Source: Akanthomyces muscarius
Taxonomy: Eukaryota > Ascomycota > Sordariomycetes > Hypocreales > Cordycipitaceae
Length of the DNA stretch: 64,000 nt
Direction of reading: 5' to 3'
Assembly (NCBI RefSeq): GCF_028009165.1
Contig: NC_079243.1
Coordinates: forward strand, 620,001-684,000
Shown: piece after piece, positions 16,449 to 21,076 of the stretch
Layout of the letters: each line of letters starts with the position of its first letter
Numbering within the stretch: position 1 is the first letter of the stretch
The notes under the pieces: model-generated
Told to the model about the DNA's origin: nothing
What the model saw: only the letters and a program-made list of their open reading frames with translations
Database searches by the model: none
Translations under genes and position numbers: made by a program

Positions 16449-19400
16449 ATGCCCGACCCTCAAGACTACGCCATCGGCTGGATCTCTGCTATAAGGACTG
16501 AGTATGTTGCTGCCCAGGAATTTCTCGACGATGAGCACGGCCCGCCCGAGCTTTTGTCAAGCAACGATACCAACCACTACACTCTGGGCCGTATTGAGAA
16601 GCATAATGTCGTCATCGCAGTGTTGCCAGACGGTGAATACGGAACGTCTTCCGCGGCTAGTGTTGCAACGAACATGCTCCGTAGCTTCCCTAATATTAGG
16701 ATTGGTGTGCTGGTCGGCATCGGTGGTGGCGCACCAACCCCGAAGCAGGACATTCGTCTGGGCGACATCGTGGTTAGTGCACCGCGCGACGGCCACGGCG
16801 GGGTGTTCCAATACGACTTTGGCAAAACGATCCAGGACAAGGCCTTTCAACACACAAGATTTCTAAACCAACCTCCGACAGCTCTGCGGACTGCATTAAC
16901 CGGAATCAAGACTCAATATGAGAGGAAAGGCCATCAGCTCGAGGCGGCTGTCACCACCGTTCTCGAGAAAAATCCAAGATTGCGAGACAAATATAAGCGA
17001 CCGGCGCCTGCTACTGATAGGCTGTTTAAGAGCGAGTTCACATGCGACCCGAGAGGCTGCGCGGCATTTTGTGCAAATGAGCCGTCGAATTTGGTCGCGC
17101 GGCGCGAACGGAGGACGAACGAGGATAACCCCGCAATCCATTACGGCTTAATCGCCTCCGCAAACCAGTTAATGAAGGATGCAACGGTTCGTGACAAGCT
17201 TGCAACGGAGAAAGATGTTCTGTGTTTTGAAATGGAGGCAGCAGGGCTAATGAATCACTTTCCCTGTCTGGTCATTCGTGGCATTTGCGACTACTCGGAC
17301 TCGCACAAGAATAAGGAGTGGCAGCGGTACGCAGCAATGACGGCTGCAGCATATGCAAAAGATCTACTCTGCCAAATAACCCCAAGCAGGGTTGAAGCCG
17401 AGAAGAAGATCGCCGACATTCTATCTGGTTAGTCTCAGGGAGTCCAAGTATCATGACGATAATACATATTAATTTGCAATTATTAATATGACAGGCCTGC
17501 CAGAAGTTCTTAAAGAGCAACGAGACATTGCCAAGGAGCAGCTTCAAACCCAGAAAGATCTAGCCGAGCAGAGACTGTCCAGAGAGGAACAAGACGAAAG
17601 ACAAAAGTGTCACCAACTATTCCGCCTCACGACTGGCAGCAAGGACGCAACATACGAGTGGTATAAAGACCGAGTTGCAGAACGGGTTGATGGCACGTGC
17701 TCGTGGCTCCTCAGGCACGAGAAGTTTCAGGACTGGTTGAAACAGGAGTCCGGTCCCTTGCTAGTCACAGCGGATCCTGGCTGTGGGAAGTCGGTGTTAG
17801 CCAAGTACCTGATTGACCACCAGATATCACAATCGGCACCATCGACGACCATCTGCTACTTCTTCTTCAAAGACCAAGACCAGAGCACCGTCCGGCAAGC
17901 CCTTTGTGCACTACTTCACCAGTTCTTCTCTCAGAGGCCCGCTCTGATCGAACATGCACTCCCGCCATTCCGCAAAAACGGGCCAGGTTTAATCGACTCT
18001 ACCAAATCGCTGTGGGAGATTCTGCGAACCGCCGTACAGGACCCCCAGGCTGGACCTGTAAGCATTGTCCTTGATGCGCTGGACGAATGCGCCCAATCGG
18101 AGTTTGCAGACCTGATGCAGAAGGTTAAGGGCCAATGCCAAGGCGACAAGTTCAGCCACGGCAAGTTGAAGTATCTCCTGACAAGCCGCCCATATGAACA
18201 GATCGTGTCTGAGTTCCGTGATCTGTTGGAGAGTTTTCCAAATATCCGTATTCCAGGGGAACAACAGTCGGAGAAAATCAGCCAGGAGGTGAACCTTGTC
18301 ATTACGCACCGCATCAATCAACTCTCGAAGAAGAAGGGCCTCTCAGACAAAATTAAGGTCCATCTAGAGAAAAGACTACAGGAGATTACCCACCGCACAT
18401 ATCTCTGGGCGTACCTTGTGTTCCAGTACTTAGAAGAGGAGAACTGGAAAAGGACACAGAAGGGAATTGATTCCACCATAAAATCGCTTCCTGGGAGTGT
18501 CAATCAGGCATATGAGCAAATCCTCAGCAAGTCTACGGAACGCCTGAAAGTTCAGAAAGCACTAAGTGTGATTTTGGTCGCGAGTCGGCCGCTGACACTC
18601 TCGGAAATGAATATTGCGTTGAATATAGACGAGAGTTCGCAGTCCATTCGTGACATTGATTTAGAGTCTGAGAAGGACTTTGAGTCAAGTCTCCGATCTC
18701 TATGTGGATTGTTCATTTCAATCCATCACGGCAGGATTTACTTCCTTCATCAAACTGCTCGCGAGTTTCTCCTCGCAGACCCGGCACGTGCAGTTAGTAC
18801 GCCAGGGCTGCATTGGCATCGTTCTATCAGTACCAGCCAGGCACATGCTGTTCTTGCGAAGCTCTGCGTGCTCTATCTAAACTTGTACAACACTGACGAT
18901 TCCATTTCGAGAAATGCGACTTTGGAGGCCAGCGATTCCGACGACAACCACTCCGTCGGGAGCCACTCGGTCAATGGCGACGCCCTCTTAAATTACTCAG
19001 CCAAAACTTGGGGCTGTCACTTTCGCGACGCCAATATCGTCGATGGCAATGGCACCATGGATTCCGCTTTAAAAATATGTGAGCCAAATTCCAAGGCATA
19101 TTCCGTATGGTCTAAAATCTATTGGTATAGTAGAAACATGGCTAGTTCCTGTTGTACCACAGAGCTTATGCTAGCGTCGCATTTTGGACATGAAACCGTG
19201 GTCAAGCGCCTGCTTAACAATAACGCTGATATTGAGGCGAGGGCCGATAGTCTGACGCCACTCGCGCATGCGATAGAAGAACAGCACGTAACGGTTGTCA
19301 GGCTACTACTGGAAAAAGGAGCTATGGTGGACTATCATTATGATCCTGTAAGTAAAATCAACCTACCCGGAGTGGATGAGAGTGAGTTTGATACTGACAT

Positions 19401-21076
19401 TCTTGTCCTTGGCTGGCGTAGCAAGTAAGTGAATCCGACCCGTGACGAATGACGAGAGTGAGTTTGATAGTTTGACGGCTGACATTGGTGTTCTTGGCTG
19501 GCGTAGGAGGTAAGTGAATCCGACCTGGGACGAATGACGAGAGTGAGTTTCATGTTTTGATGGCTTACATTGGTGTTCTTGGCTGGCGTAGTATGTAAGT
19601 GAATCCGACCTGGGACGAATGACGAGAGTGAGTTTGATGGTTTGATGGCTGACATTGGTGTTCTTGGATGGCGTAGCGAGTAAGTAAATCCGACCTGGGA
19701 CGAGAGATGAGAGTGAGTTTGATAGTTTGACGGCTGACATTAGTGTTCTTGGCTGGCGTAGCGAGTAAGCGAATCCGACCTAGGACGACTGACGAGAGTG
19801 AGTTTAACGGTTTGATGGCTGACATTGGGGTTCCTGGCTGGCGTAGCCAGTAAGGGAATCTGACCCCGACGAACAACGAAAGTGAGTTTGATGGTTAGAT
19901 GGCTAACATTGGTGTTCTTGGCTGGCGTAGCGAGTAAGTGAATCCGACCCGTGACGAATGATGAGAGTGAGTTTGATGGTTTGACGGCTGACATTGGTGT
20001 CCTTGGCTGGCGTAGTATGTAAGTGAATCTGACCCGGAACGAATGACGGGAGTGAGTTTGATGGCTGACATTGGTGTTCTTGGCTGGCGTAGTATGTAAG
20101 TGAATCTGACCTGGGACGAATGACGCGAGTGAGTTTGATGGTTTGATGGCTGACATTAGTGTTCTTGGCTGGCGTAGCGGGTAAGTGAATCTGACCCGTG
20201 ACGAGAGTGAGTTTGATGGTTTGATGGCTGACATTAGTGTTCTTGGCTGGCGTAGCGAGTAAGTGAATCCGACCTGGGACGAAAGATGAGAGTGAGTTTG
20301 ATAGTTTGACGGCTGACATTGGTGTTCTGGGCTGGCGTAGCGAGTAAGTGAATCCGACCCGTGACGAACGACGAGAGTGAGTTTGATGTTTTAATGGCTG
20401 ACATTGGTGTTCTTGGCTGGCGTAGTCTGTAAGTGAATCCGACCTGGGACGAATGACAAGAGTGAGTTTGATGGTTTGATGGCTGACATTGGTGTTCTTG
20501 GCTGGCGTAGTCTGTAAGTGAATCCGACCCGTGACGAATGACGAAAGTGAGTTTGATGGTTTGATGGCTGACATTGGTGTTCTTGAATGGCGCAGAAGGT
20601 AAGTGAATCCGACCCGTGACGAATGATGAGAGTGAGTTTGATGGTTTGACGGCTGACATTGGTGTCCTTGGCTGGCGTAGTATGTAAGTGAATCTGACCC
20701 GGAACGAATGACGGGAGTGAGTTTGATGGCTGACATTGGTGTTCTTGGCTGGCGTAGTATGTAAGTGAATCGGACCTGGGACGAATGAAGAGAGCAAGTT
20801 TTATGACTGACATTGGCGCCCTCGGCTCGCGTAGCGAGTAAGTGAAAGTAGCTACAGAAAACCGACTTATTGTTAATGAATTTCCAGACGCCTCTATCAC
20901 GAGCAGCAGAGAAAGGAGATGAGAAGATTGTTGATTTACTGCTCGAACATAATGCTGAACCGCAGTTAAAAGATATGGCTGGCGAAACTCCGATGTCACG
21001 TGCAATACAGATAGGGAATGTGGCGGTTGAGAATCGCTTAAGGATGGCTCTTGGTAAAGAAACCCCTTCTAAGTGA
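16449..21076 (+). CDS. STAND receptor: nucleoside-phosphorylase-like domain, NACHT, ankyrin repeats
   Basis: Exon 1 (16449-17427) encodes a PNP_UDP-type domain of about 326 aa: start MPDPQDYAIGWISAIRTEY, VGIGGGAPT, and the late FEMEAAGLMNHF and RGICDYSDSH motifs. An intron at 17428-17494 joins it in phase to a coiled linker and a NACHT domain with P-loop ADPGCGKSV (about residue 419) and Walker B IVLDALDEC. Degenerate helical repeats and at least two ankyrin repeats follow. The frame reaches YHYDP at 19347 and then enters the intron-like array 19348-20887. It resumes at 20888 with TPLSRAAEKG and ends at 21076. The spliced product is 1006 aa without micro-exons or 1024 aa with all 18. In the known family the NACHT domain is a nucleotide switch and the N-terminal domain the effector. 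The broken paralogue at 31603-35845 has the same architecture. Confidence 0.85.
19934..20095 (+). repeat. 162-bp higher-order duplicate, copy A
   Basis: Units 8 and 9 with their TAT micro-exons. By direct reading this block is identical to 20599-20760. Confidence 0.9.
20599..20760 (+). repeat. 162-bp higher-order duplicate, copy B
   Basis: Units 16 and 17 with their TAT micro-exons, identical by reading to 19934-20095, 665 bp away. The flanking units differ between the two copies. Confidence 0.9.

Follow-up and report, generated by a model that had tools for sequence, protein, structure and literature searches.

A tandem array of apparent introns and single-codon exons in an NLR-type gene of the fungus Akanthomyces muscarius

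Micro-exon genes, including the MEGs of schistosomes and the bicycle genes of aphids, consist of many small internal exons that share a single phase and encode fast-evolving proteins implicated as effectors (PMC9168663). In aphids, the gene ‘megacycle’ alone counts more than 100 microexons (PMC9168663). A locus in the entomopathogenic fungus Akanthomyces muscarius (Cordycipitaceae) suggests, judged by its genomic anatomy, a form of micro-exon gene taken to its limit, with each exon a single codon. The window, a stretch of 64,000 nucleotides (nt) of contig NC_079243.1 (positions 620,001 to 684,000), contains an NLR-type gene in which, by anatomy, 19 short introns follow one another from 19348 to 20887 with 3 nt between neighbours. 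This array probably consists of genuine spliceosomal introns, each spliced on its own, with the single codons between them translated as exons.

The array departs from its closest counterparts in different ways. The internal exons of bicycle genes are almost all in phase 2 (PMC9168663), whereas those of the window array are in phase 0 and comprise one codon each. Units of the NLR array, and those of a second chain on contig C11, are visibly tandem copies of an intron plus a codon, unlike bicycle genes. Bicycle internal exons are also longer than one codon. Tandem-duplication introns share with the array the origin of new introns from tandem duplication of sequence bearing splice signals, but in the case described one new intron formed at a duplicated intron-exon boundary, while here a whole intron and exactly 3 nt recur 18 times. 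Fungal introner-like elements are likewise near-identical spliceosomal introns multiplied in one genome, though they lie in unrelated genes (PMC4457414), and the window unit was found in one gene, head to tail. Stwintrons resemble the array as complex fungal intervening sequences removed in consecutive splicing reactions but are nested (PMC8469720), whereas the window introns stand one after another, any two neighbours parted by a codon. Each unit possesses a donor and an acceptor of its own and lies 3 nt from the next, and no splice element is interrupted by an internal intron. All four of these comparators are known, and each differs from the array in at least one feature.

Exons of this size have precedents. 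In plants, 1-nt microexons of APC11 and VPS55 were confirmed by RNA sequencing (RNA-seq) and reverse-transcription PCR (PMC8831610), and two 3-nt exons are stated for lipS of Dactylellina (PMC5639578), so exons this small can be spliced. Those exons are isolated, whereas the putative ones here form runs of 18-30. In the open literature searched, with most subscription journals outside its scope, no report of runs of single-codon exons was found.

The array and its components are as follows, all on the + strand.

19348 to 20837: tandem array of 18 units, each a U2-type intron of 74-82 nt plus one codon (unit listing, Tandem Repeats Finder (TRF), and column, chain and tree tests)
Starts of units 1 to 9: 19348, 19425, 19510, 19595, 19680, 19765, 19850, 19934, 20019
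Starts of units 10 to 18: 20096, 20181, 20259, 20344, 20429, 20514, 20599, 20684, 20761
Putative one-codon exons 1 to 9: 19422 CAA, 19507 GAG, 19592 TAT, 19677 CGA, 19762 CGA, 19847 CCA, 19931 CGA, 20016 TAT, 20093 TAT
Putative one-codon exons 10 to 18: 20178 CGG, 20256 CGA, 20341 CGA, 20426 TCT, 20511 TCT, 20596 AAG, 20681 TAT, 20758 TAT, 20835 CGA
20838 to 20887: terminal intron of 50 nt, GTAAGTGAA...TTCCAG, not a repeat copy, with only its first nine bases in common with the repeat

The characters of a U2-type intron are present throughout. Nineteen GTAAG donors lie between 19348 and 20838, and a GT donor with a YAG acceptor delimits 19 of 19 introns; 17 of the 18 units have TAG as acceptor, while unit 15 and the last intron have CAG. 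In 17 of 18 units (the exception is unit 3) a YTRAY branch-like site stands 28 nt 5' of the acceptor, and the lengths are typical for the gene: in order 74, 82 (five times), 81, 82, 74, 82, 75, 82 (five times), 74 and 74, with 50 for the last. At the internal junctions, which read YAG-NNN-GTAAG, the spacer is exactly 3 nt in 18 of 18, and TRF finds a period of 85 (82 + 3) with 17 copies and 85% matches. The initial annotation had described complete intron parts in every unit, a branch site in nearly all of them and a constant 3-nt separation, all of which hold (19 of 19 GTAAG donors and as many TAG or CAG acceptors are intact). Its count of 19 array units becomes 18 related copies followed by an unrelated terminal intron (20838-20887), and its 82-bp unit is the common length of the intron, the repeat period being 85, that is, 82 plus 3.

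In order, the 18 codons would encode Q E Y R R P R Y Y R R R S S K Y Y R, which is rich in tyrosine and basic overall. With 18 spacers of 3 nt, all in phase 0 and none a stop codon, the array has by anatomy the series of very small in-frame exons that defines a micro-exon gene. An open frame of 394 amino acids on the opposite strand (19903-21087, -) also runs through the array; it has no match at E <= 0.01 among 4178 candidate proteins and is regarded as incidental to a unit that lacks stops on the reverse strand. Collapse or artefact of the assembly at the array is unlikely because the published genome was assembled from PacBio long reads at an average depth of 893 (12 contigs, 36.21 Mb; PMC10323777), and the genome analysed here (36,193,312 bases in 12 contigs) is presumably that assembly.

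Whether the array exceeds a MINISATELLITE was addressed by four tests, based on chains, columns, a tree and stop codons. The strict chain rule accepted donors GT[AG].G, acceptors [CT]AG and introns of 45-115 nt joined by a spacer of fixed length. Under it, the longest chain in the array counts 19 with a 3-nt spacer and 1 with a spacer of 1, 2 or 4-9 nt, and in the rest of the window (about 62 kb, either strand) chains count 1-3 over all spacers tried and 2 for the 3-nt spacer. With looser sites background chains are mostly 2-5, and with a 3-nt spacer never above 4.

The column comparison used 71 body columns filled in at least 80% of units. Mean pairwise difference between units is 0.63, 0.66 and 0.66 in the three spacer columns versus 0.122 in the body, and none of 69 body triplets is as variable as the spacer. 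The same contrast appears when parsimony changes are counted on a tree built from unit bodies alone, where the spacer columns change 7, 9 and 8 times and the 74 body columns 0.905 times on average and never more than 4 times. None of 100,000 random body triples reaches the spacer sum. Donor columns change 0, 0, 0, 0, 0 and 2 times and acceptor columns 1, 0 and 0 times. Among the eight pairs of units with at most three body differences (gaps ignored), codons differ in six and residues in five, while units 8 and 16, as well as 9 and 17, are identical in both body and codon. The 18 spacers include no stop codon versus about 3.1 predicted from the codons' own base usage, a weak result since the units are related and not independent. 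Drift inside one long intron predicts uniform change, not frozen splice sites beside fast spacers. The rate contrast can instead reflect selection for different residues, or the keeping apart of old codons while bodies were homogenized, and either would need translation.

By similarity the window unit was not found elsewhere in the 36.2-Mb genome, among the best candidates, which alone were scored. A 20-mer from its 3' end (up to 3 mismatches) matched 17 times in the array and 6 times elsewhere, with 2 matches for a reversed-pattern control, and a branch-to-donor pattern matched 11 times in the array and twice elsewhere, with none in the control. The six 20-mer matches outside the array (1-3 mismatches) and the two branch-to-donor matches were considered as dispersed introner-like copies and set aside, as they show no further likeness to the unit when judged by eye. 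Near-identical copies in many unrelated genes, the hallmark of introner-like elements, are not seen among the candidates scored, and the unit was found at this locus only. A search of the genome for the unit had been proposed by the initial annotation; it yielded no dispersed copies. The layout does return, built from other sequences, on contigs C11 and C1.

This recurrence emerged from the pattern of two GTAAGT introns joined by 3 nt (gaps of 55-85 nt), which occurs 37 times on the forward and 3 times on the reverse strand of the whole genome, versus 10 and 5 for the reversed-pattern control. These 40 matches comprise 15 in the window array, 16 on C11, 1 in the C1 chain and 8 elsewhere. Related patterns were counted with both strands summed: shorter-intron pairs gave 5 matches against 7 in the control (3 in C11 and 1 just past the computed C1 chain), GTGAGT pairs 7 against 10 (two within the C1 chain), GTATGT pairs 6 against 6, and a 6-nt spacer 15 against 11, with none in the three arrays. 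The two further chains and their genes are:

C11 971475-973658, + strand: second chain, with 31 donors and 30 spacers of 3 nt (chain test)
C11:971255-973740, + strand: apparent small secreted-protein gene with 30 one-codon exons
C1 1048613-1047169, - strand: third chain, found from the GTAAGT, shorter-intron and GTGAGT patterns (chain test)
C1:1048844-1046850, - strand: apparent small secreted-protein gene carrying the C1 chain

Both chains are long with 3-nt spacers only. On C11 the intron bodies are 59% alike (49% when shuffled), GT and AG are present in 30 of 30, the donor and acceptor columns are nearly constant, and the last intron is followed immediately by TAA, as read by eye. A stretch of the C11 units used as a probe matched C11 alone, at 7 places, and the window unit and the C11 units have only short weak matches in common (best E 0.065). 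The C1 chain has 11 donors under the strict rule and 18, 19, 21 and 23 under four looser ones. Under the loosest, its bodies are no longer recognizably alike (likeness 0.453 versus 0.444 when shuffled), none of 22 spacers is a stop, and GT...AG and the 3-nt spacing are kept though the bodies are unlike each other. Two of its ‘introns’ measure 125 and 117 nt, the former probably containing a hidden 9-nt exon, read by eye.

Each of the two genes begins with an ATG and a hydrophobic, signal-like start (by eye, no predictor), and their 3' flanks resemble each other in two short stretches (34 bp at 85%, E 2.8e-5; 25 bp at 92%, E 9.9e-5), for which reason they may belong to one family. Joined in order, the one-codon exons of C11 and the last codon of the preceding exon give six cysteines, C-x6-C-x7-CC-x4-C-x7-C (gaps 6, 7, 0, 4, 7). 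This spacing, the only property compared, falls within the limits generally held for the inhibitor cystine knot (ICK; C-C-CC-C-C), a fit reached by random placement of the five array cysteines of C11 in 3.6% of cases (0.036), or 0.7% (0.007) with the adjacent CC. A scorpion ICK consensus begins CX6CX4DCC (PMC3694633). When the 9-nt exon is included, the first six cysteines of C1 have gaps of 4, 5, 0, 2 and 6 (read by eye), and further cysteines follow downstream. The C11 pattern would make sense only with one-codon exons joined and translated, and is independent support for this.

The gene that hosts the window array runs from 16449 to the stop at 21076 and consists of the following parts, all on the + strand.

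16449 to 17427: exon 1, encoding PNP_UDP_1 of the nucleoside phosphorylase superfamily (Pfam PF01048, E 1.2e-10); the same sequence opens the annotated protein LMH87_001514 (P0001)
17428 to 17494: ordinary intron 1, 67 nt, GTTAGT...CAG, phase 1; the junction fits P0001 (...DILSGLPEV...)
17495 to 19347: exon 2, an open reading frame (ORF) encoding a NPHP3_N/NACHT-like NTPase, a winged helix and the first ankyrin repeats (Pfam NPHP3_N 8e-38, GPIID_WHD 4.3e-7, Ank_2 3.5e-10)
20888 to 21076: exon 3, an ankyrin repeat from TPLSRAAEKG... through the stop TGA (Pfam Ank_4 1.8e-6), aligning with the ankyrin repeats of a Fusarium relative (P0002)

Exon 2 terminates in ...EKGAMVDYHYDP in phase 0, its last bases being ...TATGATCCT (19347), and exon 3 opens with ACGCCTC (20888), where the frame is re-entered in phase 0. 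Translation bears out the phase-0 junctions first proposed on both sides (YHYDP and TPLSRAAEKG), and the domains found by Pfam justify the label ‘NLR-type’: an N-terminal effector-type domain (PNP_UDP_1), an NTPase (NPHP3_N plus winged helix) and ankyrin repeats make up a fungal NLR-type (STAND) protein, the Pfam NACHT model itself scoring 23.5 bits, below its curated cut-off of 26.7. The gene corresponds to LMH87_001514 of A. muscarius, in which exon 2 is identical at 504 of 528 aligned positions. The other 24 form a single gap, a part of the NTPase region that the annotation cut out, and the published model stops short of the array. The array lies in a loop between ankyrin repeats, where 8 residues separate ‘GA’ from ‘TPL’ without the array versus 10-11 in the repeats of P0002, and a direct junction from 19347 to 20888 leaves the ankyrin frame intact.

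The closest named orthologue from another species is V2A60_004033 of Cordyceps javanica (P0008), 76% identical over 85% of exon 2. The end of this protein holds an array unit in translation (15 of 18 residues, E 2.7e-6; the best match has E 0.19 outside the array and 0.26 in the reversed window). The last exon comes next, read in another frame (9 of 10 residues), which implies a matching last intron in C. javanica. At least one unit and apparently the last intron therefore occupy the same place in a second genus, and the published models of the NLR near the array in both species (P0001 and P0008) look wrong. A search with the C. javanica tail revealed no further species, the one match among four candidates being the protein itself.

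The array could also be a minisatellite within one long intron, in which the donor at 19348 and the acceptor at 20887 alone are used and the internal sites are functionless copies. Such an intron would account for 85-bp tandem repeats with recent block duplication, for the ankyrin frame that survives when 19347 is joined directly to 20888, and for a published annotation without micro-exons. It is nevertheless unlikely, given that the internal splice sites and the length of the spacers have hardly altered whereas the rate of change at the three spacer positions is about nine times that of the body, that the C1 chain retains its splice sites and spacing though likeness between bodies is gone, and that the C11 codons give a knottin-type cysteine pattern. 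Length points the same way: separately spliced introns are favoured because 74-82 nt is ordinary beside the 67-nt intron of the same gene, whereas 1540 nt lies far above it. The initial annotation had left the choice between stepwise splicing and a single intron grown by duplication, and stepwise splicing is the option supported by spacers that are the fastest columns beside splice sites that are nearly the slowest, by constant spacers between varying introns, by the lack of stop spacers and by two further chains of like layout.

A third reading, which overlaps with separate splicing and seems possible though doubtful as the whole account, holds that the introns are spliced with variable skipping, producing a mixture of loops of 0-18 residues and making the array a device for isoform diversity. 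Every pattern would stay in frame (phase 0, 3-nt exons), near-identical sites should compete, and short forms would also fold, as the 8 flanking residues from GA to TPL without the array compare with 10-11 in P0002. Fungal splicing prefers short introns, however, which favours neighbouring pairs of sites, and the cysteine pattern of C11 requires the full ordered series. It is very improbable that the NLR allele is decaying or has lost its function, so that the repeat could expand with no effect. Inactive alleles are common among fungal NLRs and the annotated model is truncated, but the frame is open on both sides of the array with an ankyrin match downstream, the unit is also present in C. javanica, and no stop codon occurs among the spacers.

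Several observations weigh against a run of separately spliced introns with translated codons. The gene model in PMC10323777, made by BRAKER2 with RNA-seq, does not reach the array and omits part of the NTPase region (the paper describes 150-base RNA-seq reads from mycelium and infected aphids); an annotation based on RNA-seq could miss the array for want of usable reads or because a short-read aligner was unable to bridge 3-nt exons. The ankyrin linkers of the Fusarium relative P0002 (62% identical) are normal in length, so the fold can do without the 18 residues, and only one unit can be deduced in C. javanica. The contrast between spacer and body rates is present in the window array alone of the three: the C11 spacers (0.67, 0.77, 0.63) are not clearly above the body in anchored columns (up to 0.71), their lack of stops (0 of 30 versus 0.9 expected) is uninformative, and the C1 body is not alignable and hence yields no rate contrast. 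Fast spacer change could in principle stem from a mutational process at the junctions. The cystine-knot fit of C11 is statistically modest and that of C1 hangs on one 9-nt exon read by eye, and the loosest donor rule (any GT[AG]) produced one background chain of 9 (2-nt spacer, minus strand).

If the introns are spliced separately, a phase-0 intron in the loop between ankyrin repeats would have been duplicated head to tail along with 3 nt of exon. Each unit carrying a whole codon, gain or loss of units would alter the protein by whole residues and keep the frame even though the 85-bp unit is not a multiple of three. Through unequal exchange the protein could grow or shrink by single residues, and skipping of a micro-exon would likewise stay in frame. 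Working by intron definition, the spliceosome would excise each of the 19 short introns individually, and the ankyrin loop would gain 18 residues rich in Arg and Tyr. Recent duplication and exchange would keep the bodies alike while selection diversifies the codons or holds them apart. Splicing, translation, selection on the residues and any role in recognition are what we infer from this arrangement, and it is a guess that the 18-residue loop helps the NLR to recognize a ligand. The three loci may represent stages of one process, with fresh copies in the NLR gene, diverged copies on C11 and copies beyond recognition on C1.

Beside the host gene, a large ORF (23071-27285, +) with a P-loop-like motif, seen by eye, and about 18 ankyrin-type repeats of 99 bp (24895-26650) is perhaps a second NLR-like gene. 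Farther along the window are a tandem repeat of 44 bp in 7.6 copies (37114-37449) and AT-rich short tandem repeats (38167-40930), the latter perhaps a mutated (RIP-like) island.

On balance, some Cordycipitaceae appear to build parts of proteins one residue per exon, through runs of 18 to about 30 introns with a single codon between neighbours. Such runs, which would have arisen as ‘intron + codon’ was duplicated in tandem, appear both in an NLR-type receptor and in small secreted proteins rich in cysteine. As each residue could be duplicated or replaced separately, without frameshift, this would offer a route to fast diversification in genes of conflict. If so, standard annotation can miss such genes, as it did with the NLR in the window. 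If true, the arrays would mark an extreme of exon-intron organization, with some thirty introns for some thirty residues, and would test the spliceosome on serial 3-nt exons, in both intron definition and order of removal. They would also display visible stages of intron birth by tandem duplication, from the similar copies of the NLR gene through those of C11, about 59% alike, to the unrecognizable ones of C1, and would give immune receptors and secreted peptides a means of diversification that is safe from frameshifts.

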